From Promethearchaeota archaeon (GTDB taxonomy: Archaea; Asgardarchaeota; Lokiarchaeia; Sigynarchaeales; SOKP01), in assembly GCA_030620005.1 (NCBI GenBank), contig JAUXAJ010000218.1, forward strand, positions 1 through 8,979: a DNA stretch of 8,979 bases. The letters are read 5' to 3'. The notes under the pieces are model-generated. The model had not been told where the DNA came from, did no database searches, and saw nothing but the letters and a program-made list of their open reading frames with translations. Positions 764 through 8,979 of this stretch are shown piece after piece; position 1 is the stretch's first letter, and each line of letters opens with the position of its first letter. The translations under genes were made by a program, and so were the position numbers.

Positions 764-2985
764 ATGCCTCGGAGAAAAGAAATCGCTGAAATTCTTAATT
801 TAATGGAAAAACCTCAAAGGATAAGGAATATTGGTTTTGTTGGTCATATAGATCATGGAATCATTTAGACAATTATAGTCTACATGCCATATAGACCACA
901 TTATCTGATTCCCTTTTAAGCGAAGCAGGTTTATTATCTCCTGATTTAGCAGGAGAAGCCCGAGCTTTAGATTACTTAGAAGAGGAGCAGAGACGTGGAA
1001 TCACGATGAAATCTTCAAATATTTCTTTATATTATGAAAAATCCTTAGAACGCCACGAACCTTTTTTAATAAACTTAGTTGACACTCCAGGCCATTTAGA
1101 TTTTAGTGGAAAAGTAACTCGAGCTTTAAGACTGATAGATGGGGTAATTGTAGTCGTTGATGCTGTTGAAGAGATAATCGCACAATCCGAGACGGTCATA
1201 AGACAAGCGTTATTGGAAGGGGTAAAACCAGTTCTTTTTATTAATAAAGTGGATCGCCTCATCAGAGAATTAAAGCTTTCAGACGAGCAAATTAGAAAAA
1301 AGTATACAAGAATTATAAATGATTTTAATACTCTCGTTAAGAGATATGCTGAACCACCTTTCAATAGAGAATGGACCGTTTCTCCTGCTGATGGAAACAT
1401 AGCATTTGGTTCAGCGCTTCATAAATGGGGATTTACATTCAAAATATTAGAAAAAAGTGTTTTAAAATTTAAGGATATTAGAGCACGATATAAAAAAGAG
1501 AGTTATACTAAAGAAAGTTATGCTGATTTAGCAGTTTATCTTCCGATCCATCAGGCCATTTTAGAAATGGTTATTGATAAGCTACCAAATCCCATTGAAG
1601 CTCAGAAATATAGAATTGAAAAAGTATGGGATGGAGATATTAATTCAATAGTAGGAAAAGCCATGATAAATTGCAAGGCTGACGGTCCGTTAATAATATG
1701 TTTAAGTAAAGTTCAAGCTGATAAACACGGTCTTATAGCTACTGGGCGAATATTTTCAGGAAATTGCTCAAAAAAAAAAGAAGTTTTTCTCTTAAACGAA
1801 AATAAACACGAAACAATACAAAGAATCTCATTATTCATGGGTCAACGGAGAGAACAAGTGAATTCATTACCAGTTGGAAATATTGTTGCGATAGAAGGAA
1901 TAAAAAAGGTAAAAAGTGGAGAAACTATAATAGAAAGCGATTATTTAGGTGAAATGGTTCCATTTGAGAACGTAAAGTATGTTTCAAGTCCCGTAGTTAC
2001 TGTTTCGATCGAACCAGAATATCTAAGAGATTTAGAAAGAATGAAAGAACTTGCTGAAAATTTATTGATCGAAGACCCTAATTTAAAATTCGAGGTCAAT
2101 GTGGAAAATGGAGAGTTTTTATTATCAGGAATGGGGCCGCTACATCTTGAAGTAAGTACGAGAGAGATTGAAAAGAGAGGGGTGAAGGTTTCCATTTCAG
2201 AACCAAGAGCCGTTCATAAGGAATCTTGCAGAAGTGCTAGTGGAAATATTAGAGTATCTACTTCAAATGGGAAAAATTCACTTGAAATTAGGGTAGAAAG
2301 GTTAGACAATAAAACTGCTAGATTTTTCCAAACTAGCGATTATCGTTCTATCAAACCTTTTAGCAGGCTAAAGGAATTATTAAAAATAAAAACGAATTTA
2401 AAAGAGAAAGAGATTGAAAACTTTTGGAAATGTGACGAAGATCAAAATGTTTTAATTAATTTAACGAAATCAAAAATTTTAGAATTTTACAAGGAAGATA
2501 CCTTAAAAATTATCGAAAAAATACATTATAATGGTCCATTATGTGGGGAAAAATTAACGGAGGTCAAAATTACAATCTTGGATATTCAAATCAACGAGCT
2601 TGACGAAGAAACTGCGTTTACTGAATTATCTACCTTATTTTACGAAGCAATTAAAAAAGGATTAAAAGAGGCCGAATTAATTTTATTAGAGCCAATTTAT
2701 CATACATTCATTCAGCTTCCACCAGATTACATTAAAAATGCTCTTTCTTTACTGGCAAAATATTCCGCAAAAATTAAAAATATAAACCAAGAAAAAGATT
2801 ATCAGGCAATTATTGAAATTTTAATTCCAGTTAGGCATTCGATAAAATTTGCCGAAGAAATGCGCTCAACGACTTCTGGAAGGGCGTTTTGGCAAAATGA
2901 ATTCCACGCATTCATGGAAATTCCCGCAAACGAATCTTCTTCTATCATTAGCAATTTACGGTTTTTAAAGGGCCTTTCTTGGTGA
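764..2985 (+). CDS. fusA: Translation elongation factor 2 paralog, P-loop interrupted by a BHB intron
   Basis: This is an EF-2 family translocation GTPase, which moves mRNA and tRNAs on the ribosome after peptide bond formation. Read directly, ATG 764 gives [20 protein letters not shown]...GFVGHIDHG and stops at 866. Joining base 860 to 893 restores [19 protein letters not shown] and the frame that runs to 2985, giving 729 residues, the usual archaeal EF-2 length. In spliced numbering the P-loop is 27-34 (K33, T34), switch I RGIT is 67-70, DTPGHLDF starts at 96, NKVD at 150, and the G5 motif is in [11 protein letters not shown]. Domain V ends with [19 protein letters not shown]...LKGLSW and lacks the usual Pro-rich archaeal tail. 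In domain IV the conserved loop with the diphthamide histidine (archaeal HEDAIHRGPAQ) is replaced by [11 protein letters not shown] (600-610). This fits the Asgard EF-2 paralog type without a diphthamide site and suggests a role other than, or modified from, canonical EF-2. A translation starting at ATG 1006 would lack the P-loop and is not the likely product. Confidence 0.88.
861..892 (+). other. 32-nt archaeal mRNA intron with canonical bulge-helix-bulge motif
   Basis: This segment lies after the first base of the P-loop lysine codon (phase 1). It adds an in-frame TAG (866-868) and shifts the frame, and its exact removal restores HGKTT. The flanking RNA folds as a BHB. The central helix is AUGG (855-858) with CCAU (887-890). 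The two 3-nt bulges are AAU (859-861) and AUA (891-893). The inner stem pairs CAU 862-864 with AUG 884-886 and UAGAC 866-870 with GUCUA 878-882, with one U/C mismatch and a 7-nt loop. The outer pairs are C854-G894, U853-A895 and G851-C897, with one A/C mismatch. The archaeal splicing endonuclease cuts after the second bulge nucleotide, which gives 860|861 and 892|893, exactly the junctions demanded by the protein. Splicing itself is inferred. Confidence 0.88.
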
Positions 2986-3349: not shown

Positions 3350-3445
3350 TGCGCCCGCCGGGAATTGGACCCGGGCCCTCAGGTTGGGAACCTGAGATTC
3401 TACCATTTTACTTCTGTTTTTTAACAGGATCTATACTACGAGCGC
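3350..3445 (-). tRNA. tRNA-Gly(CCC): tRNA-Gly(CCC) with a D-loop intron
   Basis: On the minus strand the acceptor stem GCGCTCG/CGGGCGC forms seven pairs (one U-G) with discriminator A at 3350 and no encoded CCA. The anticodon arm is TCAGG-TTCCCAA-CCTGA, so the anticodon is CCC (plus-strand bases 3386-3388), decoding GGG glycine. The T arm is CCGGG-TCCAATT-CCCGG, with a C where U55 is normal. The D arm is interrupted after AG (positions 14-15) by 25 extra bases. Without them the tRNA is 71 nt with a normal AGTGGTA D-loop, although the D stem retains an A/A mismatch at 12-23. The AT-rich bases upstream (3470-3510) could hold the TATA box, but no single element stands out. If the insert is not spliced the gene would probably be non-functional. 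Confidence 0.88.
3406..3430 (-). other. 25-nt D-loop intron in tRNA-Gly, relaxed bulge-helix-bulge
   Basis: The insert sits between tRNA positions 15 and 17. In the transcript it contains a hairpin CUGUU-AAAA-AACAG. A relaxed BHB can be drawn: exon GUAU against intron GUAA (three of four pairs, one of them U-G), with 3-nt bulges AGA and AAU. Cuts after the second bulge nucleotide (AG|A and AA|U) give exactly the expected AG-UGG exon junction. The outer helix is weak. Introns outside position 37/38 are known in archaeal tRNAs. Confidence 0.65.
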
Positions 3446-3691: not shown

Positions 3692-4217
3692 GTGAAAGAT
3701 ATGGGAGAAGTAAAAGGAAAATATATCTTAAAATTAGATGAGTTATTAAGCGAATGCAACCCTGAAATTGCTCAGGCTGCCCAAAAAGAATTAACCATGG
3801 ATATAAATGAAATTGACTCAGATTCATGGTATGATAGTCAAATAGTTAAAAATTACATGAATAAGGTAAGTCATGATGCTCAAATAGCGCTTGGTAAAAT
3901 GTTAGTCAAGGAAGTCTATCTTAAAAACGATAAAATATTGGAAAGATTTAAGAATCCCGCCGAATTTATCAAGCTCTCGGTTGAAAAATTTAGTTCAGAT
4001 GAGCAAAGAATAGAAGATCCGTACAAGAATCACGTGGTAGATTACGCTGACGATTTTGTCATTGTAAAAAGAGATGATTGGTTATCCCTCTCTTTGGGAA
4101 GGAGCTTATCGTGGAATTCTCGAAAAATATAGAATTATAAGAGTTCACGTCAAAACTACATCAGAAACGATAGATGGTAAATCAATCACAACCTATGAAA
4201 TTAAATTTGATAATTAA
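3692..4217 (+). pseudogene. Small unrecognised protein gene with a single-base frameshift
   Basis: The frame starting at GTG 3692 or ATG 3701 (ATG is the more usual choice; no Shine-Dalgarno decides it) runs as MGEVKGKYILKLDELL to ...VIVKRDDW at 4081, then drifts into LSLSLGRSLSW and stops at 4130-4132. In the third frame the sense continues as YPSLWEGAYRGILEKYR and on through TTYEIKFDN to a stop at 4215-4217. Dropping one T near 4081-4083 joins the two and gives a protein of about 171 residues. The layout is a helical N-terminal half, a SWYD motif near residue 45, then a 'P.LWEG.Y.GIL' helix and a C-terminal strand pair. It vaguely resembles small sensor-type domains such as HNOB/V4R-like or TIGR02265-like proteins, but I cannot assign it. 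A sequencing error, a recent mutation or a programmed +1 shift are all possible. No membrane segment is seen. Confidence 0.7.
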
Positions 4218-4428: not shown

Positions 4429-7400
4429 ATGAAACGGAGCGTACAGTTATTGATAGATAATAAATACGAAGTTAACGATTCCGAAAAAAAATATCGTGCG
4501 TTATATGATAATTCAATTAATGGTATTGCCTTTCATGAGATTGTTTATGATTCATATAATAAACCAATCAATTACATTATTACTGATGTGAATCCAAGTT
4601 ATGAAACAATCTTATCTTTAAAAAAGAATGATGTAGTAAATAAACTCGCTACAAAAGCTTATAATACGGAATCGCCCCCATATTTAGAGATTTACTCCAA
4701 GGTCGCTGAAACAACGGAATCTGCTTCATTTTCCGTTTTTTTTGAGCCATTGAACAAACATTTTAAAATATCGGCGTTTTCTTACGAAAAAGGAAAGTTC
4801 ATTACTATTTTTGACGACATTACTAAACAAAAACAAGCAGAACAAAAATTGATGCAATCTGAGGTACAATTAAAGACATTAAATCAAGAACTAGAGCAAA
4901 GAGTAGAATTGCGGACGAAAGAATTAAAAGATTCTGAAGAAAAGTATCGTTCTTTAATGGATGGTTTAAATCGTATAGGTATTGGTGTGGATATTGTTAG
5001 TAATGATTATTCAGTGATATATCAAAATCAAGTGTTAAAGGAAAAATTTGGTCATGGTAAGGGAAAAAAATGCTACGATATATACATGGAGTTAAAAAAG
5101 CCATGCGAGTTCTGTCCCATGTTAAAAGCCATAAAATCTAATAAAATAGAGAGTATTGAATTAAAAGGCTCTGATGGAAGGGATTACGAACTAATTTCTG
5201 CTCCATTTCCGGATCCAGATGGAAATGTTGATAAGGCAGTTGAAGTTGTAATCGACATCACGGAAAAAAAGGAAGCCGAACAAAAATTAAGAGATTCAGA
5301 AGAAAAATATCGAGATTTATTTGAAAATTCTCCTATTGGAATTCTATTATTTGATGAAAATGGAAATTTCATGAGAGGGAACTCAACATTTTATCGAATA
5401 TTTTCTAAATACGCACAAGAGGAACTCGCAGGTAAAAATTTCAGGCAAATGATATCATTGTTTAAAAATCCCAAAGAAGTTTTACAAATATTTGCGCAAA
5501 GATTTCGTGAATTAGAGGAAGGAAAAGATTTAAAACCAATTGAATTGAAAATTGTTAGAGAGAATGGGGAAGAGCGTTGGGTAAATTGGCATAGTTCCAG
5601 AATAAAAATGAAAGATAAGACAATAATACAAGCAATACTTCAAGATGTTACAGATAAGAAAAACGCAGAACAAGAATTAAAAGAATCTGAAGAAAAATAT
5701 CGCCTTATCTTAGAAAACACGAATGATTTAATTTCCATAATAAATGATAAATTTGAACACGAATATATAAATGAACCAGCATATCTTAATACTTTAGGTT
5801 ATTCTGAAAAAGAAATATTGGGCACGAATGTATGGGAGTTGGTTCATCCCGAAGACATTGAACATTTGACTAAGTTATACCAAATCTCACCAGATGGTTT
5901 TCAAGAATTTCAAGAAGAAGTTAAGCAAGAATTAAGAGTTAGACATAAAAAAGGGCATTATTTGTGGATGGATTTTGTGAGTAAAGTTTTCATTGACAGT
6001 CAAGGTAAGCCTAAAATCGTAGCAATATCAAGAGATATCACCGATAAAAAATTAGCAGAACAAAAATTAAGAGAATCAGAAAAAAAGTTAAAAGAAAAAA
6101 ATGTCGTACTATCAGTCTTGAATAGGATAATCACGCTAGGTAACGAATCCCAGAGTCTCCAAGAGTTCTTGGAGAAATCTTACGATCAAGTTTTAGATAT
6201 TGCAGGTTTCGATAGAGGAGGAGTTTATCTTTATGATCATCAGACTCAGCATAACATATTAGTACACCATAAAAACGTTCATCCCGACTTTATAGCCGCA
6301 GTAGAAGATGTTGACATATCAGAAGGTCTTTTTGCCAGAGTATTTGACAAGAATAAACCATTTTATATTGAAGATTTCTCGAAATTCATGGAAGGCTCAA
6401 GAGAATTGGGCGTGTATTCTGCCGCAATCGTTCCACTCCGCTCAAAAGACGAATATGTTGGAAGCATGAATGTTGCTTCACCAGTTCATCAATTTCTCTC
6501 TAAAGAAGAATTAGAGTTATTAGTGGCGATCGGCAAGCAAATGGGAATAATCATTCAAAAATTTGAATCAGAAAAACTACTCAAGGAATCTGAAGGAAAG
6601 TTCAGAACCATCGCAGAACAATCATTCATAGGTATTTTGATAATCAAAGACTATCATATTAAGTATTCGAATCAGAAGTTTGCAGACATCATTGGGTATA
6701 CAAGAACAGAAATTGAAGATTGGAAACTTGAGGATTTTTTTAAGCACGTGTATCCAGAAGATGTTAAGGACTTAATTGAACTGGAAAGAAGAAAGTATGA
6801 AGGAGATGTAAAAATCATAGAAAAGTATCGATTTAGAGCATTTACAAAAACAGGCGATTTAATTTGGTTAGAAATCGATTCTAAAACAATTCCTTTTGGA
6901 GGAGATTTAGCCGATTTCACGACTATTATGGATATAACTGAAAGGGTACAATCAGAGCAAAAATTAAAAGAATCTGAAGAAAAATTTAGAGTGATTACCG
7001 AACAATCTTTTATCGGTGTTTTAATAGAACAAGAATTTAATATAAAATATGTTAATCAACAATTTTCAACAATGTTAGGGTATAGTACTGAAGAATTATT
7101 AACTTGGACGCTTGAAGATTTCTATTATATTTTCCATCCCGATGATTTAGACATATTTAAAGAACTTATTGATAAAAAGGTTAAGGGTTTTTTTGATAAG
7201 ATTACAAATTATCAGTTGAGAGTATTTAAGAAAACTGGTGAAATCATCTGGTTAGAACTTTTTTCAAGAGAGTTCATGTACCAACATAAAGCCACAAATC
7301 TAGTTTTTGTCACGGATATTACAGAGAAAAAGGAAGCCGAAAGACTCATCATCGAAGAGAAAAATAAACTAATAGAACTTAGCGAAATGAGGCAAGATAT

Positions 7401-8082
7401 TATCACAAGAGTATCGCACGAGTTGAAAACGCCTTTAACTTCTATAGATGGAGCATCTCAAATGCTTCAAATGGTTCATGGAAATGATATGAATGAAAAT
7501 GTATCTAGATTTGTCGAAATCATACATAGAGGTGCCATTAGGTTAAAAACATTAATAAATAATTTGCTAGATATTTCAAGATTAGATGCTAAAAAGTTCG
7601 AATTAAAAATTCAAAAAGAGAATATTGTAGAAATTATAAAAGAATGCATATACGAAATTTGCTATTTAGCAAATAATCGTGAACTTGCGTTAGAAGTAGA
7701 CTTACCAGCAGAATTATATTTTGATGTCGATAAACTCAGATTAGAGCAAGTAATATCAAATATAATGTCAAACGCAATTAAAAACACGCAATTAAAAGGG
7801 AAGATTTTCGTAGATCTTGTCGATACAAGGGATTACATTGATATCCAAATAAAGGATACTGGAATTGGATTAACTGAAAAAGAAAAAGAAAAAATCTTTG
7901 AAAAATTCGGCAAGATAGAAAGATACGGAAAGAATTTTGACGTAAATATTGAAGGAACAGGTCTTGGATTGTATATTTCAAAAGAAATTGTTGACTTACA
8001 TGGGGGCCAAATTCTTGTAGAATCTGATGGACGGGATAAAGGGGCAAAATTTACAGTTCGATTTTTTAAAAAACAAGAATAG
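4429..8082 (+). CDS. Soluble multi-PAS/GAF sensor histidine kinase
   Basis: This 1217-residue cytoplasmic sensor kinase autophosphorylates a histidine and passes the phosphate to a response regulator. Domain order by rough residue: PAS1 18-140; a coiled-coil segment to about 168; PAS2 169-285; PAS3 290-415; PAS4 420-545; GAF 560-715; PAS5 721-845; PAS6 849-975; HisKA 985-1050 with H-box VSHELKTPL (His997); HATPase_c about 1095-1215 with N-box Asn1115, G1 DTGIG (Asp1143) and G2 GTGLGLYISKEIV. All catalytic motifs are present, so it should be active. Most PAS units begin with SE(E/G)K(Y/F)R and end in 'DITxKKxAEQKL', the usual PAS-repeat linker. PAS2 carries Cys215, Cys226 and Cys229 (KKCY...PCEFCP), a possible metal or redox site. 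No transmembrane stretch and no receiver domain are visible, so ligands are probably intracellular and the partner regulator is encoded elsewhere. It is preceded by its own promoter-like element and converges with cheB 35 bases away. Confidence 0.93.
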   Translation: MKRSVQLLIDNKYEVNDSEKKYRALYDNSINGIAFHEIVYDSYNKPINYIITDVNPSYETILSLKKNDVVNKLATKAYNTESPPYLEIYSKVAETTESASFSVFFEPLNKHFKISAFSYEKGKFITIFDDITKQKQAEQKLMQSEVQLKTLNQELEQRVELRTKELKDSEEKYRSLMDGLNRIGIGVDIVSNDYSVIYQNQVLKEKFGHGKGKKCYDIYMELKKPCEFCPMLKAIKSNKIESIELKGSDGRDYELISAPFPDPDGNVDKAVEVVIDITEKKEAEQKLRDSEEKYRDLFENSPIGILLFDENGNFMRGNSTFYRIFSKYAQEELAGKNFRQMISLFKNPKEVLQIFAQRFRELEEGKDLKPIELKIVRENGEERWVNWHSSRIKMKDKTIIQAILQDVTDKKNAEQELKESEEKYRLILENTNDLISIINDKFEHEYINEPAYLNTLGYSEKEILGTNVWELVHPEDIEHLTKLYQISPDGFQEFQEEVKQELRVRHKKGHYLWMDFVSKVFIDSQGKPKIVAISRDITDKKLAEQKLRESEKKLKEKNVVLSVLNRIITLGNESQSLQEFLEKSYDQVLDIAGFDRGGVYLYDHQTQHNILVHHKNVHPDFIAAVEDVDISEGLFARVFDKNKPFYIEDFSKFMEGSRELGVYSAAIVPLRSKDEYVGSMNVASPVHQFLSKEELELLVAIGKQMGIIIQKFESEKLLKESEGKFRTIAEQSFIGILIIKDYHIKYSNQKFADIIGYTRTEIEDWKLEDFFKHVYPEDVKDLIELERRKYEGDVKIIEKYRFRAFTKTGDLIWLEIDSKTIPFGGDLADFTTIMDITERVQSEQKLKESEEKFRVITEQSFIGVLIEQEFNIKYVNQQFSTMLGYSTEELLTWTLEDFYYIFHPDDLDIFKELIDKKVKGFFDKITNYQLRVFKKTGEIIWLELFSREFMYQHKATNLVFVTDITEKKEAERLIIEEKNKLIELSEMRQDIITRVSHELKTPLTSIDGASQMLQMVHGNDMNENVSRFVEIIHRGAIRLKTLINNLLDISRLDAKKFELKIQKENIVEIIKECIYEICYLANNRELALEVDLPAELYFDVDKLRLEQVISNIMSNAIKNTQLKGKIFVDLVDTRDYIDIQIKDTGIGLTEKEKEKIFEKFGKIERYGKNFDVNIEGTGLGLYISKEIVDLHGGQILVESDGRDKGAKFTVRFFKKQE

Positions 8083-8117: not shown

Positions 8118-8979
8118 TTACTTAAATTTTTTATAACCTGCAAACTTAATCATGAAATTAGGAATTTTATTATTGGGCACTATATAATCAGCATATCCGT
8201 TTTCATTAGCAATTTTCGGCATTCCATACAAAACACTTGTTTCTTCTGATTCTGCTAAGGTTGTTCCACCAAACTTTTGAATTGCCCTAAGTCCCGCAAC
8301 ACCGTCCACCCCCATTCCTGTTAATAAAATCCCCATTGTACTACTTCTATAAACTTTTACCGCTGAAAAGAACAAGATGTCTATGGAAGGCATGCAAAAA
8401 TTGACTGGCTTTCCCGTGTATGCTTTAATGCAAGGTCTATTTTTGAAAACAGATACTTCCGTGTGTTGACCACCAGGAGAAATATATACAATTCCTTTTT
8501 GGAGAATTTCGAAGTCTTTTGCAACTTTAACTTTAATGTCACATGACTTATTTAAAGTGGCTGCGAAAGTTTCGACAAAATTTGCATTTAAATGTTGGAC
8601 TATTAAAATTGGACATGGAATATTCTCAGGAATTCTTTTTAGGAGAGAATTTATGGTTTTAGGACCACCCACGCTTGCTCCTATTACTATTACTTTTGAA
8701 GCCAAATGAATTCCTTTAATTGGTGCAAAATCAATGGAAATGTCAGTTTTTAATTTTCTCGTTCTAGTTGGTCTTATCATCTTATCGTGCAGGAGTTCAA
8801 GATTTAATGGTGTAACTGTCGTGCCTTTTTGCTTTATTGGCGTTTTTTTAACTTTAGGTTTAATCGTTTTGAAAACTGCAGCTTTTTGTAGGTTCTTTTC
8901 GTATTCCTTTTTTTTTATTTCTTTACGTTCAATTAATTTATCTTTATCGGCGTGTATGGTTACTTTTTTTTTACTTTTT
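8118..8979 (-). CDS. cheB: CheB-type protein-glutamate methylesterase (5' partial, long basic linker)
   Basis: CheB removes methyl groups from receptor glutamates (and deamidates glutamines) to reset chemoreceptors. The catalytic triad is visible: Ser in GASVGGP (codon 8673-8675), His in IVQHLN (8592-8594) and Asp in GMGVDG (8304-8306). The spacing of 27 and 96 residues is close to that of enteric CheB. The frame does not start at the ATG at 8780. It continues upstream without a stop through NLELLHDKMIRPTR, which resembles the linker before a CheB catalytic domain, and then through about 50 lysine-rich residues (for example ERKEIKKKEYEKN and IKPKVKKTPIKQK) to the window edge. In two-domain CheB proteins a receiver domain lies at the N-terminus; it would be beyond 8979 here. 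The long basic linker is unusual. A neighbouring CheA, CheR or receptor gene would support a chemotaxis role, but none is in view. Confidence 0.9.
   Translation of the reverse strand, partial: KSKKKVTIHADKDKLIERKEIKKKEYEKNLQKAAVFKTIKPKVKKTPIKQKGTTVTPLNLELLHDKMIRPTRTRKLKTDISIDFAPIKGIHLASKVIVIGASVGGPKTINSLLKRIPENIPCPILIVQHLNANFVETFAATLNKSCDIKVKVAKDFEILQKGIVYISPGGQHTEVSVFKNRPCIKAYTGKPVNFCMPSIDILFFSAVKVYRSSTMGILLTGMGVDGVAGLRAIQKFGGTTLAESEETSVLYGMPKIANENGYADYIVPNNKIPNFMIKFAGYKKFK

Follow-up and report, generated by a model that had tools for sequence, protein, structure and literature searches.

An EF-2-family gene interrupted in the P-loop

The window, i.e. the whole stretch of 8979 nt analyzed here, contains at positions 764-2985 a gene of the EF-2 family of a Lokiarchaeal archaeon, which is split by 32 nt (861-892) in the lysine codon of the P-loop. 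The features of the locus are the following (BHB, bulge-helix-bulge):

764..860, plus strand: exon 1, 32 codons and the first base of the P-loop Lys codon
855..858, plus strand: BHB central helix, 5' strand, AUGG, exon
859..861, plus strand: 5' bulge AAU, predicted cut 860/861
861..892, plus strand: predicted 32-nt BHB intron in phase 1, splitting the Lys codon of HGKTT
862..886, plus strand: intron hairpin with 3 bp, 1 mismatch, 5 bp and a 7-nt loop
887..890, plus strand: BHB central helix, 3' strand, CCAU, intron
891..893, plus strand: 3' bulge AUA, predicted cut 892/893
893..2985, plus strand: exon 2, two bases of the Lys codon followed by 696 residues, open to the stop

The protein sequence of exon 1 ends in HIDHG plus one base, and its N-terminus matches that of uninterrupted Lokiarchaeal relatives (e.g. 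L001). One TAG lies inside 861-892 in the frame of exon 1, and a TAG at 892-894 is the codon preceding ACC in the DNA, where no intact Lys codon is present. Excisions with a start at 841-880, an end up to 940 and a length leaving a remainder of 2 on division by 3 were tried, and among these the removal of 861-892 was the single one that restored the 14-residue P-loop motif. The initial annotation of this DNA had held that excision of 861-892 yields HGKTT and a full frame; the unique junction shows it to have been right to the base.

Structure of the insert and chance controls

The insert has two 3-nt bulges at the exon-intron borders with a 4-bp helix between them, as in a BHB motif, while the outer exon-exon helix is weak and consists of 2 bp followed by a mismatch. 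The inner helix pairs 862-864 with 884-886 and, beyond a U-C mismatch, 866-870 with 878-882. Cuts between the second and third base of each bulge give the frame of the gene back, and the cut points thus predicted (860/861 and 892/893) coincide with the ends of the unique excision, in agreement with the first reading of the sequence. The minimum-free-energy fold of 848-904 is the BHB (-8.4 kcal/mol, z -1.76; 14 shuffles out of 200 reached this stability), and the insert folded alone gave a z of -3.27, with 1 of 200 shuffles as stable. In longer stretches (840-912 and 820-930) the central helix was reduced to 3 bp and outer pairing of the exon was preferred, with z about -1.4. The description of the motif as a textbook BHB therefore stands for the central helix AUGG/CCAU, the bulges AAU and AUA and the inner hairpin; it has to be withdrawn for the 2-bp outer helix and for the longer context, which folds otherwise. 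When the insert was shuffled, a BHB whose excision restored the motif and whose inner helix reached at least 8 arose in 1 of 20,000 draws with mononucleotide and 2 of 20,000 with dinucleotide shuffling, which bears out the early judgment that chance is unlikely; when the inner helix was relaxed to at least 3, the same test on the window insert returned 234 of 20,000.

Identity of the host gene and selection on its exons

Exon 2 matches EF-2 domains of Pfam. The closest proteins among the matches listed are 73-78% identical to it; several of them come from Promethearchaeota and bear the name elongation factor EF-2 or GTP-binding protein. Asgard archaea carry two types of EF-2. Against the aEF-2 model (TIGR00490) exon 2 alone reached 597.7 bits, below the cut-off of 738.45, and because of this score the gene is, on sequence grounds, an EF-2 paralogue and not the canonical EF-2; the gene had been called simply EF-2, which holds at the level of the family. 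A further difference, seen by eye, concerns domain IV: the HRG stretch present there in a Bathyarchaeota protein (P0122) is missing from the window protein.

The exons of the window gene are open. In two interrupted relatives introduced below (L019 and L115) the exons differ by a dN of 0.083 and a dS of 1.047 over 696 codons, which corresponds to strong purifying selection; dS towards the window gene is near saturation (about 1.8-2.0), so that selection is well measured on the L019/L115 pair only. As dN lies far below dS in this pair, the interrupted genes appear to be maintained. Decay of the reading frame in relatives with the same insert had been named as an observation that would speak against an intron, and L019 and L115 show no such decay.

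In the class of the genome G002, the picture extends to canonical EF-2. Exon 2 of the interrupted gene L127 from the Bathyarchaeia-like class scored 913.5 bits alone and thus belongs to canonical aEF-2, and all 18 interrupted genomes of the G002 class have one EF-2 match each at an E-value of 1e-150 or better among the matches listed. A single canonical EF-2 is presumably essential, and from its copy number and canonical status removal of the insert would be required.

Relatives with and without the insert

Species genomes were scanned and the loci of the best 80 of 255 relatives were retained. At 77 of these 80 loci the P-loop site is empty and reads straight through or nearly so; the three interrupted loci are L019 (Lokiarchaeota bin106), L038 (Bathyarchaeota B24-2) and L054 (Bathyarchaeota S4B2_HD70). 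A search of 227 genomes in the phylum of L019 (at least 192 matching) added L115 (genome G105), with a P-loop insert at the base of the window's. L019 and L115, both from the Asgard phylum, have 31-nt inserts at the exact base of the 32-nt insert of the window. An alignment with relatives had been proposed to look for intron-plus and intron-minus alleles, and both kinds were seen, L019 and L115 with the insert and most relatives without it.

Central pair 2 is C-G in L115 versus U-A in the window and L019, matching a synonymous change of the His codon, and the inner helices of the three inserts differ in sequence while their pairing is kept. Compensatory change was thus found at the phase 1 position of the P-loop Lys codon, in n = 3 sequences.

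A tree of exon 2 was built from 48 rows, L005 being omitted owing to an internal stop. It groups L019 and L115 with the uninterrupted L022 (100/98) and places the window gene elsewhere on an unresolved fork. A clade of the window gene, L019 and L115 was rejected (AU p 0.001), while the same three genes together with L022 were not rejected (p 0.095). The insert at this position was therefore gained twice, or gained once and lost again in L022, both histories being compatible with the AU tests. As a separate observation, L005/L125 (G152) has an uninterrupted P-loop and one in-frame TAG further down the EF-2 paralogue, which is not an insert.

Inserts in EF-2 genes across archaea

The initial annotation had described this one EF-2 intron. 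It is not an isolated case, since 34 further interrupted EF-2 genes were found in archaeal genomes. Together with the window this makes at least 35 genes with at least 37 inserts, each 29-54 nt long, which occupy eight positions within the motifs G1-G3 or next to them (^, point of insertion):

IR^N, phase 1, just before G1: 21 genes
IIAH^VDHGK, phase 0: 3 genes
P-loop Lys codon, phase 1: 3 genes (window, L019, L115)
P-loop Lys codon, phase 2: 2 genes (L038, L126)
KRQ^MT, switch I, phase 0: 1 gene
DTP^GH, phase 0: 1 gene
DTPGH^V, phase 0: 3 genes
HV^D, phase 1: 3 genes

The G3 motif DTPGHVDF is broken in six genes of the phylum of L019 (L116-L120 and L123). The class of L038 (256 genomes, at least 227 matching) contributed at least 18 genes with inserts, and a 398-genome sample of its phylum (at least 387 matching) at least 8 more; the group of the genomes with further inserts was inferred from the reference genome around which each was searched. 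In one EF-2 gene (L136, genome G450) three BHB introns are predicted, one at each of G1, switch I and G3.

All 37 inserts have a strict 4-bp central helix, 3-nt bulges and an excision that restores the motif, compared with 0.25 of 37 expected from shuffles, and the BHB solution is single in 36 of them; L159 has two, the second being weaker. At every site the 3' end of the insert complements the flanking exon, the sequences differ between sites, and both ends lie two bases into the 3-nt bulges. From species to species, the inserts resemble one another more in their geometry than in their sequence. Among the 21 inserts at IR^N, two-sided changes were observed at central pair 2 and at inner pairs 2-5, with non-pairs at inner pairs 4 (3 of 21) and 5 (6 of 21).

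The survey rows were picked by eye for a suspected break and centred on interrupted genomes, so that the counts are no frequency, and picking rows with late starts biases them toward N-terminal breaks. Several partial rows, e.g. G061, G063, G007, G096, G126, G141, G422 and G749, are left out of the counts, and further introns may lie elsewhere in EF-2. Altogether 47 EF-2 loci were read in the survey, of which 32 contained BHB introns, 4 inteins and 11 neither; among the latter, L125, L134, L135, L139, L140, L141, L160 and L161 are intact at the motifs and L121, L122 and L133 are truncated or masked. EF-1A served as a control in the class of G002, where 231 of 256 genomes matched and the EF-1A rows were near full length among the matches listed. 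For the 18 genomes with EF-2 introns, EF-1A is uninterrupted in 9 among the matches listed, falls below the listing threshold in 7 and has no match in 2 (G264 and G265). Four EF-1A rows flagged for stops have the terminal stop only, and G392 has an internal TAA.

Eight further close EF-2 homologues start after the P-loop (P0008, P0036, P0040, P0051, P0087, P0095, P0103 and P0104) and, judged from their protein sequences, may be additional intron-bearing genes.

Splicing machinery of relatives and a putative tRNA intron in the window

The tRNA-splicing endonuclease EndA (PF01974) was found in 15 of the 15 related genomes tested, with two genes of about 180-230 aa in 14 of them and one in G253. 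Two EndA genes per genome is the pattern expected of a two-subunit endonuclease, and in the work on cbf5 such two-subunit enzymes are described as accepting relaxed BHBs (PMC2738675, in the accessible part of its text). The ligase RtcB was found in 6 of 8 related genomes tested; it was not found in the other two, G105 and G289. From these relatives, the organism of the window would be expected to possess both EndA and RtcB. In G450, RtcB gives two matches (1-56 and 49-426) in one open frame of 1032 residues (C2:90883-93678), which suggests an intein in this ligase.

Within the window, ARAGORN matches a tRNA-Gly(CCC) at 3351-3445 on the minus strand only without a 25-nt insert in the D-loop (3406-3430), and this insert forms a relaxed BHB with 3 of 4 central pairs. 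As the tRNA is recognized only after removal of the insert, this suggests that the organism of the window splices.

Nature of the insert

We consider the 32-nt insert of the window to be, very probably, an archaeal BHB pre-mRNA intron that is cut by EndA and re-ligated in the manner of the crenarchaeal cbf5 intron, with the caveat that the outer helix is weak and that the best fold of longer stretches departs from a strict BHB. The initial reading as a BHB intron in the P-loop codon is supported by the unique junction, the shuffles, the inserts of L019 and L115, the 34 further genes and the purifying selection on exons. In the transcript, the 3' end of the intron (CCAU) would pair with AUGG, the exon bases that immediately precede the 5' bulge. 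EndA would make its cuts within the two 3-nt bulges, at 860/861 and 892/893; the exons would then be joined by an RNA ligase, most likely RtcB, whereby the P-loop Lys codon is rebuilt as A|AG. That the transcript is cut and ligated and that the window gene yields the full-length protein is inferred.

Since the window gene is a paralogue, viability of the host is no proof that the gene works, and the insert could be the mutation that killed a dispensable EF-2 copy; in favour of this, a second EF-2-like match is present in each of the two interrupted genomes of the Asgard phylum (G001 and G105). Such decay is nevertheless highly improbable, given that exon 2 is open over 696 codons, that the exons of L019 and L115 are strongly constrained and that the interrupted genes of the G002 class include canonical EF-2 (L127, 913.5 versus 738.45 bits) and come from genomes with one EF-2 match each at the above E-value among the matches listed; the fit to the BHB would moreover be a coincidence. 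An error of sequencing or assembly has the smallest chance of all. The contig is metagenome-like and a second frame may be broken near 4080-4110, but a BHB-shaped insert of 32 nt would be an unusual error, and L019 and L115 have inserts at the same base in two other assemblies.

A small palindromic mobile element or repeat that sits in the gene and is not removed at the RNA level would likewise be a hairpin, as the insert is. We give this very little credence, because the inserts complement their flanking exons at every site, differ in sequence between sites, end two bases into the bulges and have their geometry, more than their sequence, in common between species. Translational bypass or frameshifting, with ribosomes skipping the hairpin, deserves just as little: the hairpin and the in-frame stop after the glycine codon resemble known bypass sites, but the Lys codon is split A|AG and the codon before the resuming frame is TAG, so that joining of whole codons cannot yield HGKTT. 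Joining of RNA would rebuild the lysine, which a ribosome hop could not, since there is no intact Lys codon before ACC. Phases 0, 1 and 2 are, in addition, all present at other EF-2 sites. An intein at the window site was rejected owing to the length of 32 nt, the broken frame and the TAG in frame, and a group I or group II intron owing to the length and the lack of an Rfam match at the gathering threshold in the window.

Relation to known introns and inteins

Archaeal protein-gene introns are documented mainly in cbf5, and an intron is also known in the XPD helicase gene of Thermoproteales. The pre-mRNA intron of cbf5 in Crenarchaeota was described by Watanabe 2002 (as cited) and Yokobori 2009 (PMC2738675). 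The accessible text of the latter gives the cbf5 introns as having a BHB at both borders, a cut after the second bulge base, a length of 16-44 bp and a patchy presence, in hosts with hetero-oligomeric EndA, and names cbf5 as the one archaeal protein gene with confirmed splicing by 2009, putative introns being predicted in others. The EF-2 inserts are like these in the BHB at both borders, the predicted cuts after the second bulge base and the patchy presence. They differ in their host, since cbf5 encodes a pseudouridine synthase whereas the window insert lies in a gene for a translational GTPase of other archaea, and in occupying eight positions across genes, with three introns in one gene (L136). 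Splicing of cbf5 was shown experimentally, while that of the EF-2 inserts is predicted. In open-access literature (titles and openings of abstracts, with subscription papers and preprints mostly outside this scope) no report of an intron in an archaeal EF-2 gene was found. A type of intron already known would gain a new host in EF-2, where its spread across the GTPase motifs is unexpected.

The archaeal tRNA introns of the BHB type have the motif and the presumed enzymes in common with the EF-2 inserts; introns occur in 92-95% of tRNA genes in three Asgard genomes (PMC11291895, from the part of the article consulted). They are part of tRNA genes and are read in the context of tRNA structure, whereas the EF-2 inserts interrupt coding sequence and have to preserve its frame. 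Group I, group II and spliceosomal introns are also intervening sequences, but the window insert is far too short for them and matches no Rfam family at threshold. In four EF-2 genes of other archaea (L124 from G228, L130, L131 and L132), inteins lie directly after the P-loop Lys codon (HVDHGK/C...HN/TT); they measure 179-605 aa, contain Intein_splicing domains and, in three of the four, a LAGLIDADG domain. They share the HVDHGK/TT site but are removed from the protein, whereas the window insert has 32 nt with in-frame stops. Since inteins and predicted BHB introns are found at the same place, the EF-2 P-loop seems to attract two kinds of removable insert. EF-2 rows of G234, G244 and G246 resemble the P-loop inteins, as seen from match rows only.

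The eight positions argue for several gains of putative introns in EF-2 overall, and reverse splicing may have spread them, since the 3' end of each intron is the complement of its 5' exon. We lean, with some reservation, towards regarding the GTPase core of archaeal EF-2 as a region in which BHB introns have landed repeatedly in at least two phyla, with independent arrivals at eight positions in or beside G1, G2 and G3 and inteins at the same P-loop site; these lineages, some of them with only one canonical EF-2 gene, would then need the tRNA-splicing machinery in order to make EF-2, and translation could be coupled to the activity of EndA and the ligase. The predicted introns place the cbf5 type in EF-2-family genes of a Bathyarchaeia-like class and of Asgard archaea, which are the closest group to eukaryotes. 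In the Bathyarchaeia-like class an interrupted gene may at once belong to canonical EF-2 and be the sole EF-2 match of its genome (L127; among the matches listed). Inserts in the GTP-binding parts of EF-2 point to overlooked archaeal mRNA splicing, which would be hidden in annotation because gene callers truncate such genes. With eight positions in one gene and gains or losses among relatives, a test of archaeal intron gain becomes possible.

Remainder of the window

An ORF at 3701-4132 has no homologue: at an E-value of 0.001 or better one protein was found, the window's own. It seems to be continued in another frame from about 4089 (SLWEGAYRGILEKYRIIRVHV...; region 3701-4216), and a second frame break at about 4080-4110 is possible, which could be a frameshift, an error or an intron. 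The remaining genes are ordinary signalling genes, a multi-PAS/GAF histidine kinase of 1217 aa (4429-8082, plus strand) and an adjoining protein with a CheB methylesterase domain (8118-8978, minus strand).
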